IMG/VR virus record: IMGVR_UViG_3300011114_000688
Location: 1-26,011 of that record
Direction: 5' to 3' (one strand)
DNA length: 26,011 bases
Source of the DNA: a virus
Position numbers and translations under genes: made by a program. Of this stretch, positions 3,527 to 20,479 are shown piece by piece. Every line of letters begins with the position of its first letter. The stretch's first letter is position 1. The notes beneath the pieces were generated by a model. It saw only the letters and a program-made list of their open reading frames with translations, was not told where the DNA came from and did not search any database.

Positions 3527-5118
3527 TACATTATGCCTCCCGGTTCGTACAAGACATGGTAGGAGGACAGCGTAGTTGAGCCGCCTACGCCCTTAACGCG
3601 CATACGCACTGCGCCAAAATAACCAAGGCCAGAAACGCCAAACCAGCTTTCGTAGGTATTGCTTGAGCCAGACCATTTGGCTGTGTTCCAGAGGCTGACA
3701 TCCCACTCAGAAGCAGTCGTTCCGCTAAATGAAGGAGAGCCGGCTACGTTGGTGAAACTGTACTGCGTGTTCATACGCAGCTTTACGCCAGGTGCTTGCA
3801 GCGTAATAAAGACAGGCCGCACCATCGTAAACTTTTTAAGGCGACCAGGCATCTCGAAGGCATTAAACGCGCCCTGGATGTCGCCGCGCACAGCGTCACC
3901 GCTGGTGTTATCAATAGATAAGCCGTCCTCTTCGCCAAACAATCCTTTGGCAATGGCATTATCATCAGTGCCAAAATATAGCTGCCCGTTTAGCAGCGCG
4001 GTGCAGACCATTGGAATGTTTGAGAACGAACACCATGAGCCGGTGTTTACGTTCATTGCGTATTGAACAAAAACGCCGTTCTGCGGCGGTAGTTTAATCA
4101 GCAACACATCAGAGTTCGGGACGAGGATAACGTCCCAAGACGCATCATTGCGGTATTTGACAATCAATGGAGACAGCACGTTCTGTATCTTAGACGATGG
4201 CCCAGGCTGTATTTCGCTGAACTGACCATTGACCAGGCGAGACATTGGCACCAGGCCAAGCTCAGACAAGATCATCACATCGCCGCCGTATGCCGTGAAG
4301 AAAAGACCTATTGACGGGACCGGCCCGACATACCAAACGCCCTTTAGGCCAAACGTAACGGCAGACGTTGGATCGGTTCCCTGCCAGACGCCTATGTCAC
4401 CCTCGGTGCCGACCACGACAAGATAATCATCAACACCAAAACCGCTATCAAGCGTCCAGTTGATGAGGCCGCGAACGGAGCCGCCGTTCCTTAACAGCGA
4501 ACCCATCTCAAATGCCACAGCAATGCCGTCAATCGCGTCGATGTCTTCGAGGTACCAGACCGTTGAGGTCTTGTTTTCGGTAAACCAGACGCGGTTTTTC
4601 CAGACGGCTACAGATAGCAAGTCAGTTGGCAAATTGGTGGGCGCTGTTTGTGTCCAGCCAGAACCTGCCTCGTATACCCAATAGCCAGCGCCGGGAGACA
4701 CAGCCAGCAAGACAACCTCGCCGCTGGCGAGCGCAAACTGTGTCGTACTCCAGATGCCGTCTGTTGATCCCGTTGAGGCTTGATCCTCAACCGCATCTTC
4801 GCCCGTAACGTCCCAGATGCTGCCGCCAGATGCTGCGAATAGCCTGTTATCCCCGCTGTCAGCAGCGTTGTAGCTAAACAAGGATGTGACGGGATCGGCT
4901 AGAGCGTTGCAACTGTACTGCCAGCCCTTACGCAGCAAGCAGCCTGTGCGCTGTGGGATGAAGTTGTCCATCACCATCGCGTCGGTAGGCGGCATCTCGC
5001 TGATGGGGTCGCGGAAGTTTAGACCGCCCACGGGCGCAGGGATGCTTGTCAGCATCGAGACTTGTGCTGCTGCTGAGAGCCTTGGGCTTTTGTAGGGTTT
5101 TAATGCAACCAGGGGCAT
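3526..5118 (-). CDS. P22 gp10-like head/tail stabilisation protein
   Basis: A 530-residue, beta-rich protein. Short strand-turn repeats with Trp and Gly (for example SLFSYNAADSGDNRLFAASGGSIWDVTG, then VLLAVSPGAGYWVYEAGSGW, then LLSVAVWKNRVWFTENKTSTVWYLE) suggest a beta-propeller. This matches packaged-DNA stabilisation proteins of the P22 gp10 type, which plug the connector after packaging and form part of the short tail. It follows the adaptor-like gene with a TAATG overlap, the order expected from P22 (portal, scaffold, coat, gp4, gp10). The assignment rests on fold-like pattern and gene order. Confidence 0.7.
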   Translation of the reverse strand: MPLVALKPYKSPRLSAAAQVSMLTSIPAPVGGLNFRDPISEMPPTDAMVMDNFIPQRTGCLLRKGWQYSCNALADPVTSLFSYNAADSGDNRLFAASGGSIWDVTGEDAVEDQASTGSTDGIWSTTQFALASGEVVLLAVSPGAGYWVYEAGSGWTQTAPTNLPTDLLSVAVWKNRVWFTENKTSTVWYLEDIDAIDGIAVAFEMGSLLRNGGSVRGLINWTLDSGFGVDDYLVVVGTEGDIGVWQGTDPTSAVTFGLKGVWYVGPVPSIGLFFTAYGGDVMILSELGLVPMSRLVNGQFSEIQPGPSSKIQNVLSPLIVKYRNDASWDVILVPNSDVLLIKLPPQNGVFVQYAMNVNTGSWCSFSNIPMVCTALLNGQLYFGTDDNAIAKGLFGEEDGLSIDNTSGDAVRGDIQGAFNAFEMPGRLKKFTMVRPVFITLQAPGVKLRMNTQYSFTNVAGSPSFSGTTASEWDVSLWNTAKWSGSSNTYESWFGVSGLGYFGAVRMRVKGVGGSTTLSSYHVLYEPGGIM

Positions 5119-5867
5119 TACGATCCAAAGCCCGTATCAGGCGTGTTGTAGAGCGCGTTGAGGTACGGGAAGCCGTAAGAGCGCACCATGTTCAAGACAG
5201 GTGAGCCTTTTTCCTGGCCTTTACGGTTCTCAAAGTTCACATGGAAATCGCGCATTGCGGCGGCTGAATCCAGACCCTTCATCTCAAGCCATTTTGCCCG
5301 CGTGTAGAGCGTGACCAAGAAGGCGTCCAGAAGAATAGTATCGCCGTTCTTAGTGGCGCGGTTCTTGTAAAGTGTCGGGTTGTCCTGATCTATCACCCAG
5401 GCCAGCGACTGATACATAAACGTCAGCGTCTGCGCTTCAGTCGGCGGGGCCAGGATATAGAGAGAGTTGTCGCGCACCTGCCAGTAGAAGGACATCGTTG
5501 GTAGGACAGTCCTGACCAACAAGTTCTGCCACATCTGCGGGCTGATAGGGCCAATCGCGGGCCATTGGTTAGTGCTGTTCCATTGCGTCTGGTCGATCCA
5601 CTCGTAGAAATCTTCTGGCAGATCGAATGCTTGTTCTGTCTGACCAGGAGTGTCGGCGGCAATAGAAATAGAGTAAGTGCGCGTAAGTTCCTGCCAATCG
5701 TACAGGCCCAGAAGTTCCGTAGCCGACATATTAACGGCTTGAACCATCTGCTGAACGGAAGGATCGGAATCGCCGGCTGGGTCAGATGGCGTTGGATAGC
5801 TCACCATCTGAGCGACGTTTTGAACAATCGCTAGTAGCGTTGCATCTTCAATAATCTGAAAAGACAT
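5118..5867 (-). CDS. Head-tail adaptor / tail-tube-A-like connector protein
   Basis: A 249-residue protein. The N-terminal helices (LLAIVQNVAQMVSYPTP, then VNMSATELLGLYDWQELTRTY), a central strand region ending in DLPEDFYEWIDQTQW, and a late helix (DAFLVTLYTRAKWLEMKG) fit the adaptor proteins that bind under the portal in podoviruses (P22 gp4 or T7 gp11 type). The order portal, capsid, adaptor, gp10-like supports this. ATG at 5867 has only weak AAGG about 12 bases upstream. I infer the role; no single diagnostic motif is visible. Confidence 0.6.
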   Translation of the reverse strand: MSFQIIEDATLLAIVQNVAQMVSYPTPSDPAGDSDPSVQQMVQAVNMSATELLGLYDWQELTRTYSISIAADTPGQTEQAFDLPEDFYEWIDQTQWNSTNQWPAIGPISPQMWQNLLVRTVLPTMSFYWQVRDNSLYILAPPTEAQTLTFMYQSLAWVIDQDNPTLYKNRATKNGDTILLDAFLVTLYTRAKWLEMKGLDSAAAMRDFHVNFENRKGQEKGSPVLNMVRSYGFPYLNALYNTPDTGFGS

Positions 5868-5883
5868 CTAACCCAGCCTTTAT

Positions 5884-6477
5884 TTAGATTTTGGCTTTAG
5901 TCATCATCTTGTTGAGCGCCTCGATCTGAGACTGCATTTCCTCAATCTTGGCATCGCGTTCTTTAAGCTCGTTGTTCATGCGCTCAAACGGAGCGTTGCC
6001 TTTGGCAATCTCCAAAAAAGCATTGGCAGAGCGTTTGTCTTCTTGGAAGCCAAAGAACTTCTGGCCCACGCTGTCAGACGCAGCGGCAAGCTGCTCGACG
6101 GTGTGAATGGCGAAGTATTTGTATTCCTCAACTTTGCTGGGCGTCATCTTGGGCAGCGAAGAGATCGGCGTACCTTCCTGCACAACGCCAGCGTTTGCTT
6201 GCCAGTTTGCATACTTGGACGCAAAGCGCGTAGCGTCACCAGATGTAACGGGACGCTCTACGATGCTTGCCTTGTCGCCAGGTACAATGATCGTGATGTA
6301 GTCAATTTCTTTAAAGATAGCGCGACCAGCTATGTCTGACTCAGCGGGCTGAATCTTGGGGCGGCGGCTGAACTGTACATGCAGCTTGTCGTCGTTCTGG
6401 AACCTGTTGGAGTTATCGTCAACGGCGTCAGATACGTTATTCCAATCTGTAGGGGCAGTGGCTGTGGCGGTATTCAT
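5884..6477 (-). CDS. Conserved phage structural-module protein with C-terminal coiled coil
   Basis: A 197-residue protein starting MNTATATAPTDWNNVSD, with AAAGGA well placed before ATG. The middle contains a strand-rich stretch (IFKEIDYITIIVPGDKASIVERPV) and then ATRFASKYANWQAN. The C-terminal 35 residues (ERMNNELKERDAKIEEMQSQ onward) have heptad spacing of a coiled coil. It lies between the decoration-like gene and the adaptor gene, behind a hairpin that may reduce its transcription. I have seen this type of protein beside capsid genes in environmental podoviruses but cannot name its function. Confidence 0.65.
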   Translation of the reverse strand: MNTATATAPTDWNNVSDAVDDNSNRFQNDDKLHVQFSRRPKIQPAESDIAGRAIFKEIDYITIIVPGDKASIVERPVTSGDATRFASKYANWQANAGVVQEGTPISSLPKMTPSKVEEYKYFAIHTVEQLAAASDSVGQKFFGFQEDKRSANAFLEIAKGNAPFERMNNELKERDAKIEEMQSQIEALNKMMTKAKI

Positions 6478-16029: not shown

Positions 16030-16620
16030 ATGCTCGCCTATCACAACGACCCCGCGATTAAATCGAAGCTGCTGGCTGATCTACAGGCCCACGCCAATGC
16101 TGACCGGCTCGTAAAAGGCCAATACTGGGAAAACGGAAAGGGCTGCGCGGTTGGCTGCACGCTGCACAGCGTGGGTGCGGCGGGTCATGCTAACAATCAC
16201 GCGGAATATGAAACCCGCCTTGGCATCCCGCAAATGCTCGCCCAACTAGAAGATAAAATATTTGAAGGCTTGCCGAACGCCGACGCGATGCGCTGGCCTA
16301 TGCGGTTCAGCGCGGCAATTACCCCCGGCGCGGATTTATCGCGTGTCGGCTGGCAATGGCTGCACTGGCTGCTGACCGATGGCTTGCCGCGTGTAAACGA
16401 TGCGGCAGTGACGGCAGCAATAAAACAATGCGCTGACGTACTGCTGCCGCTGATGCGCGGTGAGTCTGTTGATCGTGCGGCGGCTGATGCGGCGGCTGAT
16501 GCGGCTGGTGCGGCGCGGGCGGCGGCGCGGGCGGCGGCGCGGGCGGCTGGTGCGGCTTGTGCGGCGGCTAATCAGCGCATGGCTGATAAGTTGGTGCAGT
16601 TGCTGGAGGATGCGAAATGA
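16030..16620 (+). CDS. Conserved protein with variable Ala-rich C-terminal repeat
   Basis: A 196-residue protein with AAGGA before the start. The N-terminal 145 residues carry a recognisable signature: GQYWENGKGCAVGCTLHS near 30-47, LGIPQMLAQLEDKIFEGLP near 64-82 and LSRVGWQWLHWLLTDGL near 103-119. Proteins with these motifs occur widely in proteobacteria and phages as hypotheticals and often end in an Ala-rich array that differs between members. Here residues 149-180 are almost only Ala with D, G, R or C every third or fourth position, encoded by a near-tandem GC-rich DNA repeat (about 16478-16570). Function unknown. Confidence 0.75.
   Translation: MLAYHNDPAIKSKLLADLQAHANADRLVKGQYWENGKGCAVGCTLHSVGAAGHANNHAEYETRLGIPQMLAQLEDKIFEGLPNADAMRWPMRFSAAITPGADLSRVGWQWLHWLLTDGLPRVNDAAVTAAIKQCADVLLPLMRGESVDRAAADAAADAAGAARAAARAAARAAGAACAAANQRMADKLVQLLEDAK
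16478..16570 (+). repeat. GC-rich short tandem repeat inside the Ala-array gene
   Basis: Units of the type GCGGCGCGGGCG and GCGGCTGATGCG repeat in frame and encode AAD, AAG and AAR steps. Copy number could change by slippage without breaking the frame. Confidence 0.65.
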
Positions 16621-16700
16621 TCCGCCAGTACATCACCACCGCCCTCGCAGCCATAGCCCTGGCGTTCTTGTTCTTCGCGCTCTGGGTCGCCACGCCATGA
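16617..16700 (+). CDS. 27-residue single-pass membrane peptide
   Basis: ATGATCCGC at 16617 overlaps the previous stop (ATGA), and its own stop TGA at 16698 overlaps the next ATG (ATGA). The product, MIRQYITTALAAIALAFLFF then ALWVATP, is one hydrophobic helix of about 18 residues after a short polar head with one Arg. Both overlaps match the rest of the chain, which supports it as a real gene. A phage inner-membrane micropeptide is likely; its target is unknown. Confidence 0.6.
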   Translation: MIRQYITTALAAIALAFLFFALWVATP

Positions 16701-16969
16701 GCAAAACAACCAGCCACATCCTCGAAACCACTTTTGAGTTTTCCGAAGAAACCGAAAGCCACATAAAGCTGACCTACTTCTACACGCCCCCCACCAGACA
16801 GCGCGCCGCGTCATACGCAAACGGCGGTGAGCCGCCAGAAGGTGCGTCAGTCGAAACCATCGCCCTTGAAGTCGATGGAGCGCCGGCGACTAACGACCAG
16901 TTCGACATCGCCCAAACCAGCGACAGCCTTTGGGATAAAATGATAGCCCACGCGGAAAACAGCCTATGA
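16697..16969 (+). CDS. Small phage protein of unknown function
   Basis: A 90-residue acidic protein starting MSKTTSHILETTFEFSEETE, with ESHIKLTYFYTPPTRQRAAS and later VETIALEVDGAPATNDQFDI; probably beta-rich. The start is set by the ATGA overlap with the membrane peptide; an open extension further upstream runs in another frame through the Ala-array gene and is rejected. Confidence 0.65.
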   Translation: MSKTTSHILETTFEFSEETESHIKLTYFYTPPTRQRAASYANGGEPPEGASVETIALEVDGAPATNDQFDIAQTSDSLWDKMIAHAENSL

Positions 16970-17157
16970 AACGCAGCAAAAAAACAATGGCGACCCACCC
17001 GCCCTCTGCCGCCGAAGCCGCCGACAAAGCCGCGAGGAAGGTGGGTCAGGTGCAGTACCGCCGTGGACGCCCGCCCCCAGATTTCGACTGGACCACCGTC
17101 ACGCCCGAGGCCCGCGCCGCAGCTATCGCCGCGTTCAGAGCAAAGATAAAGCCATGA
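16966..17157 (+). CDS. Small basic phage protein
   Basis: A 63-residue basic protein starting MKRSKKTMATHPPSAAEAAD, with RRGRPPPDFDWTTVTPEARA in the second half. The RGRPP segment resembles an AT-hook. It is joined to both neighbours by ATGA overlaps. A DNA-binding role is a guess from composition. Confidence 0.6.
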   Translation: MKRSKKTMATHPPSAAEAADKAARKVGQVQYRRGRPPPDFDWTTVTPEARAAAIAAFRAKIKP

Positions 17158-17369
17158 TCCTGCCACAAATGTGCCTCGACTGCCGTCACGCGCACTGGCC
17201 CCAGCACTCTGCCGGCGAGTGCCACGCGCCCACCGTCCCGCCCAACACCACCACCCAGGACGCCCGCAAAAAAGGCGGCATATGCGGCAACGCCGGTATC
17301 TTATGGGAGAAAACCAATGACGAAAATACATTACCTATCCGCTTGACACCAACAGGAGCCGGGGATTGA
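17154..17369 (+). CDS. Zinc-binding small protein, C-terminus extended by cassette insertion
   Basis: A 71-residue protein with MCLDCRHAHWPQHSAGECHA and GGICGNAG, a CxxC...C...C set likely to bind one zinc. The mobile cassette begins at 17330 inside this gene. In the reconstructed empty site the frame would end WEKTNDENT-stop; now it reads on into the cassette end and gains LPIRLTPTGAGD before stopping at 17369, where the stop overlaps the cargo start as TGATG. The insertion therefore changes only the tail and links translation of this phage gene to the cargo. The protein's function is unknown. Confidence 0.7.
   Translation: MILPQMCLDCRHAHWPQHSAGECHAPTVPPNTTTQDARKKGGICGNAGILWEKTNDENTLPIRLTPTGAGD
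17322..17329 (+). repeat. Target-site duplication, left copy
   Basis: GAAAATAC lies directly outside the left end of the cassette and matches 18149-18156 exactly. Eight bases is the duplication length known for IS1595-family transposition. Confidence 0.85.
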
Positions 17370-17518
17370 TGGCTAAGAAGAAGAGGTATTTTAAGACCGA
17401 AGGCGCGGCGAAGCGAGCCGTTACCATGTGGGAGAAGCGCATGAAACGTGCATTAGAGGATAAGTGGATTTTCCATGAAATCGTAGACGGCGCGCATTGC
17501 TGGTCGGTGTGGCTGTGA
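17369..17518 (+). CDS. 49-residue basic cassette protein
   Basis: The protein MAKKKRYFKTEGAAKRAVTM continues WEKRMKRALEDKWIFHEIVD and ends GAHCWSVWL. It is basic and probably helix-rich with a Trp-containing strand at the end. Its ATG overlaps the upstream stop (TGATG) and its stop overlaps the Mom-like start (GTGA), so it is the first of two coupled cargo genes. In phage Mu, mom is also preceded by a small overlapping gene, com, a zinc-finger translational activator; this protein has only one Cys and is not Com. Function unknown. Confidence 0.65.
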   Translation: MAKKKRYFKTEGAAKRAVTMWEKRMKRALEDKWIFHEIVDGAHCWSVWL

Positions 17519-18132
17519 GGGTCGCCGTTATCAGCCGCCGCGAAGCCGTCACGCTTGTAGTGGCGCACCATTACATGCACCGCAAGCCGCCGATTTCCTT
17601 TGCCTTCGGTTTAATAGACGACTTCGGCAACACCAAGGGCTGCATCACGTTTGGAACGCCGGCCAGCCACCATATGCTGATTGGAGCCTGTAAGGCCGCA
17701 CCGGAGAATGTAATTGAACTAAACCGCCTCTGGTGCCACGACGAAATGCCCAGAAATACGGAAAGCTGGTTTGTTTCCCGCGCCTTGTCTCTTTTGCCGC
17801 CCAAGATCGTACTTAGCTACGCAGACACAGCGGCAGGGCACATGGGCTACATCTACCGGGCAGCAAATTTCTACTATGCCGGATGGACGGATATGGAACG
17901 CAAGACGCCACGGTTTGACTACGTTGCTCCTGGCAAGCACAGCCGAGACGCCTTCCGAAACGGATTTACAGATCGGGTGCGCCGCAACCCCAAGGTAAAA
18001 TACTGGATCGTGACGGGTAATCGGCGCGAGCGTAAGAGCCTTGAAGCGGCTTGCCTTTGGCCGAAATTGAATTGGAAAACTAACCCGCCGCCAAGCGAGC
18101 ATCGCCAAGCTATAGGTGGTGGCCGTGGGTAA
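17515..18132 (+). CDS. Mom-like DNA-modification protein
   Basis: A 205-residue protein resembling the Mom family, GNAT-fold enzymes first known from phage Mu that modify adenine in DNA to a carbamoylmethyl form and so resist host restriction. Visible family features: AHHYMHRKPP at 17-26, FAFGLIDDFGNTKGCITFG at 29-47, ELNRLWC at 68-74, and SYADTAAGHMGYIYRAANFY at 101-120, which holds the YAD motif and GH-GYIYRA-N core. GTG at 17515 is chosen as start because it overlaps the previous stop (GTGA); an upstream TTG is possible. Its stop TAA lies in the cassette's inverted repeat. It probably protects the phage DNA; the exact modification is not readable. Confidence 0.78.
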   Translation: MRVAVISRREAVTLVVAHHYMHRKPPISFAFGLIDDFGNTKGCITFGTPASHHMLIGACKAAPENVIELNRLWCHDEMPRNTESWFVSRALSLLPPKIVLSYADTAAGHMGYIYRAANFYYAGWTDMERKTPRFDYVAPGKHSRDAFRNGFTDRVRRNPKVKYWIVTGNRRERKSLEAACLWPKLNWKTNPPPSEHRQAIGGGRG

Positions 18133-18146
18133 CAACCGGATAAGCG

Positions 18147-18263
18147 ATGAAAATACTTAACGCCCTCCGCGCCCTGTTTACACGCCCAGCACCGCCCACC
18201 CTCGCCCAGCGCCTGATCGCAGTCCACATCAACGCCACGACCCCGCGAAGGATAATCGGATGA
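18147..18263 (+). CDS. 38-residue phage peptide whose start was rebuilt by the cassette
   Basis: The peptide MKILNALRALFTRPAPPTLA continues QRLIAVHINATTPRRIIG. Its ATG is made of AT from the cassette end and G from the duplicated target. Without the cassette the gene would start ATGACGAAAATACTTAAC (MTKILN), overlapping the end of the zinc-binding gene. Its stop overlaps the next start as ATGA, continuing the chain. The product is a short amphipathic helix with a Pro break; function unknown. Confidence 0.6.
   Translation: MKILNALRALFTRPAPPTLAQRLIAVHINATTPRRIIG
18149..18156 (+). repeat. Target-site duplication, right copy
   Basis: Second copy of GAAAATAC, directly outside the right end of the cassette. 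Confidence 0.85.
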
Positions 18264-18535
18264 AAGACGACGATCTCACTGCCAAAGAAAAAGCCCGCCT
18301 CCGCGCTGAATGGGAGGCAACCCTTACGCCGCAAGACCGCATCGAGATAACCGCCTACATGAGCAAGCTGGGTGCGCTTGGAGGCTTACGCCGTGGACGC
18401 CGCAAGGTGCGCGGTGATGCCGAGTATTACCGGCAGTTAGGTGCCGCGAACAATACCAACATGGAAGCCGCCCGCGCCGGCAGAGCGAGGAAGAAAGCCG
18501 AACGCGACAAGGCAAAGCAGGAGGACAAGCCATGA
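18260..18535 (+). CDS. Small charged helical phage protein
   Basis: A 91-residue protein starting MKDDDLTAKEKARLRAEWEA, with a Gly/Arg turn (KLGALGGLRRGRRKVRGDAE) and a basic helical tail (ARAGRARKKAERDKAKQEDK). It is joined to both neighbours by ATGA overlaps. Composition suggests nucleic-acid binding; no domain is recognised. Confidence 0.65.
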   Translation: MKDDDLTAKEKARLRAEWEATLTPQDRIEITAYMSKLGALGGLRRGRRKVRGDAEYYRQLGAANNTNMEAARAGRARKKAERDKAKQEDKP

Positions 18536-18559
18536 GTCCATTTGGCACAATCAAAATAC
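18532..18559 (+). pseudogene. 5' fragment of a small gene split by the IS
   Basis: AGGAGG lies 6 bases before this ATG, which overlaps the previous stop (ATGA). The frame reads MSPFGTIKI and then enters the IS inverted repeat at 18560, stopping within it. The matching 3' part is at 20349-20479. If 18560-20348 is removed exactly, the frame joins to give a 52-residue protein. Confidence 0.65.
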
Positions 18560-18582
18560 CATGCTTATCCGGTTATCACCCA
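18560..18582. repeat. IS left terminal inverted repeat
   Basis: Begins CATGCTTATCCG and continues GTTATCACCCA. It contains the transposase stop codon (18576-18578, read on the minus strand). Confidence 0.8.
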
Positions 18583-19598
18583 TGAGCACTAGCCGTAGGA
18601 TGTTGCCATTCTCCGCTGTAAAGCTCGGCATAGGTCGGGGCCGTACTTTCGCCGCCGATCCCGAGCAAGGAACGGAAGGCGTTGAACGGATAGAAACGGC
18701 GGTTAAACCGAAAGGTGAACTCGTTGAGATAGGCTTGAAGGTGCTGTGGGCTGACGCCGTGGTGACAGCCGCGAAGCCAGCCCTTCAGGTTGCTGAAAAT
18801 CAGGTGGACGATGGGCAGGTATTCCTCGGCCACCTTAGGGTCACCCGCCTCTGCCGCCGCGATATGGGCATAGCCTCGGGCGGTCAGCGAGTTGTAGCCG
18901 TTCCACCCGTCCGTCACGATGGTCGTGCAGGGGTCCACAGCGACCTCCACGAAGCCCACCAGCGACTTGGCACCACGGGTCGGGACAACCTGCAAGCGGA
19001 GGCGTCCCGCGATCCTGCCGCCCCGGCGTTCCTTCTTTCCGGTGTCCTTGGCCTCCCGCTGGCGAACCTCGACGGCGGCAACCACAAGCGTCTGGTCGTG
19101 GACGCCCCGGCCTTCGCCACGGGTCGCCCCACCGATCCAGGTTTCGTCAACCTCGACGTGGCCGTCCTTGCGTCCGATCCGGTCAGCGTCAGGGCGGACC
19201 ATACCTGCCCGCAACTTATGGAGAATTTGGAAAGCAGTCTCGTACCGCTTGAGGCCAAGCTGCCGCTGGAATTGGGTCGCACTCATGCCCGCCGTGTGGC
19301 TGGCAACAAGGTAAGCCGCCCAAAACCAGACGTTCAGCGGGGTCCGCGTCCGTTCCATAACCGTGTCCGCCGTCAGGGCAATGTCCCGGCGGCACTTGCG
19401 GCACCGCAGGACTCCGGGCCGGTTGGCGAAGCGGAAGGGCTCCCCTTGGGTATTGCAGTGGGGGCACGTAAAGCCATGCTCCCAACGGATTTTCTCAAGG
19501 TAAGCCGCACATGCCGCGTCGTCAGGGAACAGCCGCTGGAACTGTGGCAGGGACGTGGGGAACGGCAGGTCGGCATGAAGGAAGATGTCGGGGGCCAT
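18576..19598 (-). CDS. IS1595-family transposase
   Basis: A 340-residue transposase. The N-terminal zinc ribbon has C45, C48, C66 and C69 (TCPHC ... RCRKC). The catalytic domain begins with VEVDETWIGG (first Asp D151); TDGWNGY gives the second Asp (D230). The region VHLIFSNLKGWLRGCHHGVS near 264-283 is the conserved third block, where this family carries N rather than a typical Glu, followed by QAYLNEFTFRFNRRFYPFNA. Length and motifs are intact, so it is likely active. It starts directly after the stop of the 59-residue passenger gene (TAGATG). It may also move the cassette at 17330-18148 in trans. Confidence 0.93.
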   Translation of the reverse strand: MAPDIFLHADLPFPTSLPQFQRLFPDDAACAAYLEKIRWEHGFTCPHCNTQGEPFRFANRPGVLRCRKCRRDIALTADTVMERTRTPLNVWFWAAYLVASHTAGMSATQFQRQLGLKRYETAFQILHKLRAGMVRPDADRIGRKDGHVEVDETWIGGATRGEGRGVHDQTLVVAAVEVRQREAKDTGKKERRGGRIAGRLRLQVVPTRGAKSLVGFVEVAVDPCTTIVTDGWNGYNSLTARGYAHIAAAEAGDPKVAEEYLPIVHLIFSNLKGWLRGCHHGVSPQHLQAYLNEFTFRFNRRFYPFNAFRSLLGIGGESTAPTYAELYSGEWQHPTASAHG

Positions 19599-19778
19599 CT
19601 AATCACCCTTCCGCACATAGAGGCCCAATTCCAACTTGGCCTCAACTCGTGTCGGGGCCTGAATGGCGTGCGTCAGCAACGCCCCGTGCTTCACGCACCG
19701 GCACGGATTGCTCTTGAGCCGCCGCATGGTCTGCTCGCTGTAAAGGCATTTGCCCGTGTCACAGGTGAACCATTCCAT
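19599..19778 (-). CDS. 59-residue Cys-rich IS passenger protein
   Basis: A short gene in the space between the transposase and the next passenger gene. It encodes MEWFTCDTGKCLYSEQTMRR and ends ELGLYVRKGD, with Cys in CDTGKC and PCRCVKHG, four Cys suited to one zinc. Its ATG is 3 bases after the upstream stop and its TAG is followed at once by the transposase ATG, as in a coupled operon. Function unknown. Confidence 0.6.
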   Translation of the reverse strand: MEWFTCDTGKCLYSEQTMRRLKSNPCRCVKHGALLTHAIQAPTRVEAKLELGLYVRKGD

Positions 19779-19781
19779 GGC

Positions 19782-19985
19782 TTAAGCCCTCTCGCTCATA
19801 ATCTTACGCAGGTACTTCACGCTGCACCCAGCCCTGCGGGCTTCGGACTTCTCAAAAGCCCGCTTCTGGTTCTGCTCAATCCATCCGGCGACGGCCAAGC
19901 ACGCCTCCTGTTCGCCGTCCCGACCGTTGTTACTTTCGAGCCACATGATGGCCGTGTCGAAATCTTGTTGCGTGGGCTTCTTCAT
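19782..19985 (-). CDS. 67-residue IS passenger protein with HTH-like end
   Basis: Starts MKKPTQQDFDTAIMWLESNN, helical throughout, with EACLAVAGWIEQNQ and a C-terminal stretch RRAGCSVKYLRKIMSERA that resembles the recognition part of a helix-turn-helix. It might regulate transposition; this is inferred from location. It lies 3 bases after the previous passenger stop. Confidence 0.6.
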   Translation of the reverse strand: MKKPTQQDFDTAIMWLESNNGRDGEQEACLAVAGWIEQNQKRAFEKSEARRAGCSVKYLRKIMSERA

Positions 19986-19988
19986 GAC

Positions 19989-20186
19989 CTAGCCCTTCCC
20001 AGTCTTTCGCAGGGCAGTGAGAAGCTTGTTTTGGAGCACATCGCCCCGGTCGTTAATGGAGGCGTGTTCCAGATCGCCTTCTTCGGTGCCTCCATAAATG
20101 CTGCCGTCTTCAAAGGCGATGCTAAGGGCGCGCAGCAACATTTGAACGTCCTCCTTAACCAAATTAGACACAGATACTTTCTTCAT
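19989..20186 (-). CDS. 65-residue IS passenger protein, first gene of IS operon
   Basis: Starts MKKVSVSNLVKEDVQMLLRA with GGAG 9 bases before the ATG; a GTG three codons earlier lies too close to the ribosome site. It is an acidic helical protein with SIYGGTEEGDLEHASINDRG. Its ribosome site and first three codons lie in the 86-bp unit that is duplicated beyond the IS end. Function unknown. Confidence 0.6.
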   Translation of the reverse strand: MKKVSVSNLVKEDVQMLLRALSIAFEDGSIYGGTEEGDLEHASINDRGDVLQNKLLTALRKTGKG

Positions 20187-20348
20187 TTCAAACACTCCGA
20201 AAGGTTAACTAATGCAACATACACTAGGACAAGTACCTGTGGGTGTCAAGCGGATAAGCATGCTTTCTTCATTTCAAACACTCCGAAAGGTTAACTAATG
20301 CAACATACACTAGGACAAGTACCTGTGGGTGTCAAGCGGATAAGCATG
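20177..20348. repeat. Perfect 86-bp tandem duplication of the IS right end
   Basis: 20177-20262 and 20263-20348 are identical. Each unit begins CTTTCTTCATTTC, contains the ribosome site and start of the first passenger gene and its promoter, and ends with the 23-base inverted repeat. No base differs, so the event is recent. Confidence 0.95.
20221..20249 (-). promoter_or_regulatory. IS promoter with -35 in the terminal repeat
   Basis: On the minus strand TTGACA (20249-20244) is followed after 17 bases by TAGTGT (20226-20221). It drives the passenger genes and transposase. The duplication gives a second copy (-35 at 20330-20335, -10 at 20307-20312). The cassette's left end keeps the same TTGACA (17343-17348) but has a poor -10. 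Confidence 0.6.
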
Positions 20349-20479
20349 GATGGCACCATGAGGTGGACTATTCCGCATTTAAGGATAACGACCCACAACT
20401 CCGCGATGGCCTTGTGATGCCGTCTGGCATTAACAATTACGGGATGAAACTTGTTCGCATGAATGGCACCGCAGGATGA
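20349..20479 (+). pseudogene. 3' fragment of the small gene split by the IS
   Basis: From TGG at 20351 the frame reads WHHEVDYSAFKDNDPQLRDG, then LVMPSGINNYGMKLVRMNGT, and stops at 20477-20479. It has no ribosome site of its own. It is in frame with the 5' fragment (18532-18559) if the IS and its duplication are removed with no target duplication. The family is not recognised. Confidence 0.6.

Follow-up and report, generated by a model that had tools for sequence, protein, structure and literature searches.

The locus and its mom gene

The window analyzed here, i.e., the whole 26,011-nucleotide stretch (positions 1 to 26,011) of IMG/VR record IMGVR_UViG_3300011114_000688, is a 26-kb viral contig of phage origin. 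Its minus strand carries genes for the terminase, portal, major head protein, tail, and amidase, and the window also encodes SSB, Sak4, a Cas4-like exonuclease, and a primase/helicase; the capsid is nearest to that of Stenotrophomonas phage BUCT555 (68%), followed by Myxococcus phage Mx8 (62%). The features relevant to this work are listed below, with the strand in parentheses where one applies.

17154..17369 (+): 71-aa phage ORF with a CxxC motif, also found in contigs L100 and L101 without mom; its 3' end now enters the cassette
17322..17329: left target-site duplication GAAAATAC, identical to the 8 bp at 18149-18156
17330..17356 (+): left terminal inverted repeat ATTACCTATCCGCTTGACACCAACAGG, match to the IS1595-type end motif
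17369..17518 (+): 49-aa basic ORF with no assigned function, overlapping the mom start by GTGA; accompanies mom in this cassette only
17515..18132 (+): mom, 205 aa, Mom-family (GNAT-fold) predicted adenine-modification enzyme, identified by profiles, fold, and selection
18122..18148 (-): right terminal inverted repeat, minus-strand reading ATCGCTTATCCGGTTGTTACCCACGGC, match to the IS1595-type end motif
18147..18263 (+): downstream small phage gene (MKILNALRALF...), with its ATG re-created at the cassette/target junction; empty-site version MTKILNALRALF...
18149..18156: right target-site duplication GAAAATAC, perfect 8-bp copy of the left octamer
18560..20348: transposase-bearing IS1595-family element with the same end type as the mom cassette; right end tandemly duplicated
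18576..19598 (-): IS1595-family transposase, 340 aa, 66% identical to that of ISAcr1 of Acidiphilium

The mom ORF starts with GTG at position 17515 and stops at 18130-18132, and its start shares four bases (GTGA) with the stop of the 49-aa ORF. A Mom-like protein had been predicted here from the sequence alone, and database comparisons bear this out: the 205-aa protein contains the ELNRL, SYAD, and GHMGYIYRAAN motifs and matches Pfam family PF25680 (Mom; E=5e-30, 105.1 bits, curated cut-off 27.1), phrog_1384 (Mom-like DNA modification protein; 3.6e-38), and Mu Mom in the PDB (8bv8; 1.8e-10 with phmmer, 3e-22 as a profile), to which it is 29% identical. An NCBIfam search with the same protein yielded nothing above the cut-off. 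The protein is an additional member of the already known Mom family.

Among annotated phages, the nearest homologs are mycobacteriophage Mom-like proteins (DillTech15 gp95 and Jerm2 gp40; 58% identity, full length), and close mycobacteriophage relatives already carry the annotation Mom-like or acetyltransferase. As in the window, these genes stand alone without com. However, no IS1595-type ends with an 8-bp duplication were found in the mycobacteriophage copies examined (L047, L050, L071, and L079), whereas the window mom has both. In mycobacteriophages MH576959 (Pita2) and PP978836 (PSullivan), as well as in L079, a frameshift has apparently divided the Mom homolog in two. In jumbo phages, Mom has been reported fused to nuclease domains (PMC7824862). 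With the window Mom protein as a single query, no match was obtained in bacterial genomes; a search with the Mom alignment recovered 13 relatives, mostly distant.

Fold, conserved residues, and likely activity of Mom

The AlphaFold model of the window Mom, built from 50 relatives, reached a pLDDT of 90.7. Comparison of the predicted structure with Mu Mom had been proposed as a check of the original prediction, and the match is clear: Mu Mom (8bv8) is the top Foldseek hit in the PDB (E 2.3e-10, TM 0.67-0.70), with the next GNATs scoring only 6e-4 or weaker. The predicted fold is of the Mom/GNAT type, and the key positions are kept. We identified 16 positions that are invariant across the 50 relatives, most of which are also present in Mu Mom. 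Those common to Mu include H19 (H48 in Mu, AF083977 numbering), Y20 (Y49), R23 (R52), E68 (E98), R71 (R101), S101 (S136), A103, D104 (D139), Y114 (Y149), and Y163 (Y207). In addition, Ser84, which is 90% conserved, aligns with a serine that is alanine in 8bv8; the title of that entry reads "inactive mutant S124A", and the deposited chain has NSEA where Mu AF083977 has NSES. Purifying selection on the gene is strong, with dN/dS of 0.03-0.04 between the window mom and two relatives in unrelated phages.

The window protein and Mu Mom (8bv8, PF25680) thus belong to one family, as judged from the profile match, the fold, and the shared residues, among them the serine that is mutated in the inactive crystal form. 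The genomic settings differ: Mu mom lies behind the Mu late promoter, beside the invertase gene, whereas the window mom is part of an operon whose small genes overlap, has no com, and, unlike Mu mom, is borne on an IS1595-type cassette. The product of Mu Mom is N6-(methylcarbamoyl)adenine. Given the fold and the intact conserved positions, it is reasonable to infer adenine modification and broad resistance to restriction; like Mu Mom, the window protein most likely modifies adenines of the phage DNA, which would thereby be shielded from many host restriction enzymes. An alternative is that the protein is a Mom-like GNAT with altered chemistry or target, using another acyl group or a non-adenine substrate, while still being cassette-borne. 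The low identity to Mu Mom and a well-conserved C-terminal region that differs from Mu (KVKYW..TG.RR...L....WP.L.WK..PPP) speak for such a shift, but the key residues are kept and the predicted structure matches Mom specifically, well ahead of other GNATs (E 2e-10 vs 6e-4), and we consider a changed activity possible but unlikely.

The mom gene is carried by an IS1595-type cassette

The original prediction overlooked the main point of this locus, namely, that the 49-aa ORF and mom are enclosed within one transposon-like cassette of 819 bp (17330-18148). The insert begins with ATTACCTATCCGCTTGACACC, and its other end, read backwards, is ATCGCTTATCCGGTTGTTACCC. The IS1595-type end motif matches the window five times, against 0.02 expected, with two matches around mom and three around the transposase gene; the two around mom are inverted, bound the cassette exactly, and differ from the end motif of the adjacent IS1595 element by 2 and 1 mismatches. 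Furthermore, the sister contigs L100 and L101, which are about 88-95% identical to the window around the locus, retain the empty site: a single GAAAATAC stands in place of window positions 17322-18156, and both ORFs are missing. A tblastn search of 17330-18148 with the IS1595 transposase gave no match.

This anatomy, with IS1595-type inverted repeats, an 8-bp duplication, and passenger genes, corresponds to that of a mobile insertion cassette. Mobile insertion cassettes (MIC/MICE), defined as non-autonomous IS derivatives with passenger genes, are already known from bacterial plasmids, and the qnrS2 cassette of Aeromonas plasmid pAC3 consists, as in the window, of inverted repeats and a passenger without a transposase (PMC5444012). 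However, the pAC3 cassette carries a resistance gene on a bacterial plasmid, whereas the window cassette is an IS1595-type element residing in a phage, with a DNA-modification gene as passenger.

The landing site of the cassette is benign. The insertion point lies inside the overlap of two small genes, such that the upstream gene is extended by a short tail, and the gene downstream stays in frame because the cassette/target junction re-creates its ATG. The possibility that the right end of such cassettes generally supplies an outward start codon preserving the frame of the next gene was considered and rejected: the effect is seen by inspection in the present copy, but among the elements listed, 31% of outward ATG frames reached at least 50 aa, compared with 26% of other frames. 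The outermost four bases of the mom cassette ends are ATTA and ATCG instead of the CATG usual in the family, and this copy may therefore be decayed and immobile.

The transposase-bearing IS1595 element begins 411 bp downstream of the mom cassette, and its ends (CATGCTTATCCGGTTATCACCC / CATGCTTATCCGCTTGACACCC) resemble those of the cassette; its right end is present at both 20262 and 20348 (86-bp unit, 20174-20348). No target duplication remains at this element: on its right it borders the 3' portion of a 286-aa gene, of which L100 has an uninterrupted copy (5081-5941), whereas the sequence on its left is unrelated, as would be left by a deletion next to the element. ISAcr1, an IS1595-family element of Acidiphilium plasmids related to it through the transposase, has ends of the same type and is flanked by an 8-bp direct repeat, GAATCAGC. 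ISAcr1 is an autonomous IS without a passenger gene, found on bacterial plasmids, whereas the mom cassette is non-autonomous and found in a phage. Between the window and contig L002, positions 16480-20475, a stretch of 4 kb comprising the mom cassette and the IS, are 99.9% identical, against 84-93% elsewhere in this pair, which indicates recent recombination of the block.

A second mom cassette in an unrelated contig

In contig L006, which has a phage DNA polymerase and is otherwise unrelated to the window, a mom 69% identical to that of the window is bounded by the same end type and a perfect 8-bp duplication, ACTGGTAT. When 80 mom loci were scanned de novo for any inverted ends with an 8-bp duplication (16-bp ends matching at 12/16), exactly two loci were recovered, those of the window and L006. 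The same criterion was matched by 2 of 400 shuffled loci, and the case for the cassette therefore rests on the IS-end match and the empty site, not on the de novo scan alone. In L003, a left end lies 32 bp ahead of mom; a right end was looked for and not found, so that this locus is counted as one-ended only.

The companions of mom vary among cassettes, as seen from the 32-bp gap in L003 and from a tRNA gene between the left end and mom in L006 (5924-5992; Rfam 37.4 bits, above the gathering score), a gene that ARAGORN did not find. Additional tRNA-like genes, whose anticodon is unclear, lie across or immediately ahead of the start of other, distant mom genes in L090 (2379-2454), L091 (1411-1486), L096 (2404-2479), and L097 (2720-2795). 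Complete cassettes occur in only 2 of about 60 mom groups, with a one-ended version in a third (L003), and are thus not the main route by which mom spreads.

We weighed these observations against the possibility that mom was brought in by ordinary phage-phage recombination, illegitimate or homologous, at a short repeat, with the transposon-like ends being a coincidence or relics of the neighboring IS. Phages do exchange genes in this way, the block shared almost unchanged with L002 (16480-20475) shows recombination around this locus, and IS1595-type ends are missing around most mom genes of other phages. Nevertheless, inverted IS1595-type ends and an 8-bp direct repeat mark the limits of the insert with single-base precision, the sister phages show a one-copy empty site, and the same arrangement surrounds mom in the unrelated contig L006, which together make recombination of this kind a very unlikely origin of the insert. 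We are highly confident, instead, that a Mom-family enzyme, most likely adenine-modifying, arrived as the cargo of an 819-bp non-autonomous IS1595-type element. Under this scenario, the element would have brought the 49-aa ORF and mom into an Mx8-like phage by inserting at GAAAATAC, in the overlap of the two small genes, with duplication of those 8 bp. The likely mover would be an IS1595-family transposase acting in trans, supplied either by the host or by the copy that now lies downstream of the cassette.

The 49-aa ORF and the absence of com

In phage Mu, the zinc-finger protein Com binds to a hairpin adjoining the structure that masks the mom start (PMC6483171). The original prediction stated that com is absent from this locus and that the small basic protein encoded at 17369-17518 takes its place and could be a new partner of Mom. 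The first statement holds: neither upstream ORF matches Com-like families in Pfam, PHROG, or NCBIfam, and the Com gene directly upstream of and overlapping mom, as in the Mu com-mom operon, has no counterpart in the window. The absence of com is, however, usual for mom genes and not special to this phage. As to the second, the open frame exists, but nothing indicates a partner role.

We found no relative of the 49-aa ORF in 50,697 phage records, and none in viral contigs besides one near-identical contig. The mom genes of L003, L004, and L005, with 84-89% identity at the protein level, are preceded by sequence unrelated to that of the window. Nor is any gene conserved beside mom in the 73 loci with enough upstream sequence that were examined (80 loci form 60 mom groups); neighbor genes recur in at most five groups, and the recurrent ones are all unrelated to the window ORFs. 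The 49-aa ORF was thus rejected as a conserved Mom partner. The CxxC ORF (17154-17369) was likewise rejected as a Com equivalent: it is present in the sister phages L100 and L101 without mom at the site and is therefore not mom-specific. Finally, the RNA at the mom start (17480-17560) is not unusually structured, with a fold energy z of -0.28 relative to shuffles; there is thus no signal of a Mu-type RNA switch, nor any sign of the translation-inhibiting structure of the Mu operon, for which a stand-in for Com would be required.

An alternative is a two-gene module in which Com would be replaced by the 49-aa protein, acting either as a functional partner of Mom or as an activator of its translation. 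Such an arrangement would fit with the translational coupling provided by the GTGA overlap, with the location of both ORFs inside the same cassette, and with the small, basic nature of the protein, as might be expected of an RNA- or DNA-binding protein. However, the near absence of relatives, the lack of this ORF beside closely similar mom genes and of any conserved neighbor across the mom groups, the ordinary RNA structure at the start codon, and the tRNA gene that fills the corresponding place in the L006 cassette render such a module highly improbable. Without a Com-type activator, mom would be expressed by read-through and translational coupling, a mode made probable by the co-directional position of the cassette in a tightly packed operon and the four-base overlap of the ORFs.

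IS1595-type cassettes across viral contigs

Viral contigs were scanned with a 19-base pattern for the ends, which yielded at least 119 stretches. Among the matches listed, 73 of the 115 inward end pairs within 3 kb were flanked by a perfect 8-bp duplication, compared with 1.1 in shuffles. At 90% identity, there are at least 66 distinct elements, of which at least 22 have an IS1595 transposase (1.6-2.6 kb) and at least 44 do not (0.2-1.2 kb); the median longest ORF of the latter, among the matches listed, spans 83% of the element. The passengers among these matches include, besides mom, D12-type adenine methyltransferases (L194 and L157), PAPS-reductase-like genes (L199 and L116), and an RlaP-like gene (L208).

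Transposase-less cassettes with perfect or 7/8 8-bp duplications are located in L194 (6411-7175), L157 (1505-2273), L199 (3848-4670), L116 (6132-7322), L208 (2976-3861), L182 (8043-8722), and L179 (3417-4187); phrog_12600, of unknown function, was found twice among these seven. The element in L197 (3177-5739) carries both a transposase and an N6/N4 DNA methylase.

Among the matches listed, an IS1595 transposase is encoded in only 1 of 19 cassette-bearing viral records, which points to a transposase supplied by the host, though these records may mostly be incomplete; the presence of both a cassette and an IS1595 element makes the window unusual. We are inclined, by a modest degree, to the broader view that phages share a large pool of single-gene cassettes with IS1595/ISAcr1 ends that would be moved in trans mostly by host transposases, shuttling mom, D12-type adenine methyltransferases, PAPS-reductase-like genes, and RlaP between unrelated phages.

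Implications

A literature search that covered few subscription papers yielded no description of phage genomes containing IS1595-type cassettes or MITEs, nor of mom as the cargo of an IS1595-type cassette; with such incomplete coverage, the missing reports are weak evidence of novelty.

Genes of the mom type occur in unrelated phages, and the means by which they move have so far been unclear. Here, mom was caught as a passenger of a non-autonomous IS1595-type element, with an exact target duplication and empty sites in sister phages, a vehicle that suggests a route for the exchange of anti-restriction genes. As a practical handle, the inverted-repeat ends flag genes that are worth carrying for phages. 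If general, this arrangement would represent an overlooked, transposon-based exchange of accessory and anti-restriction genes among phages.
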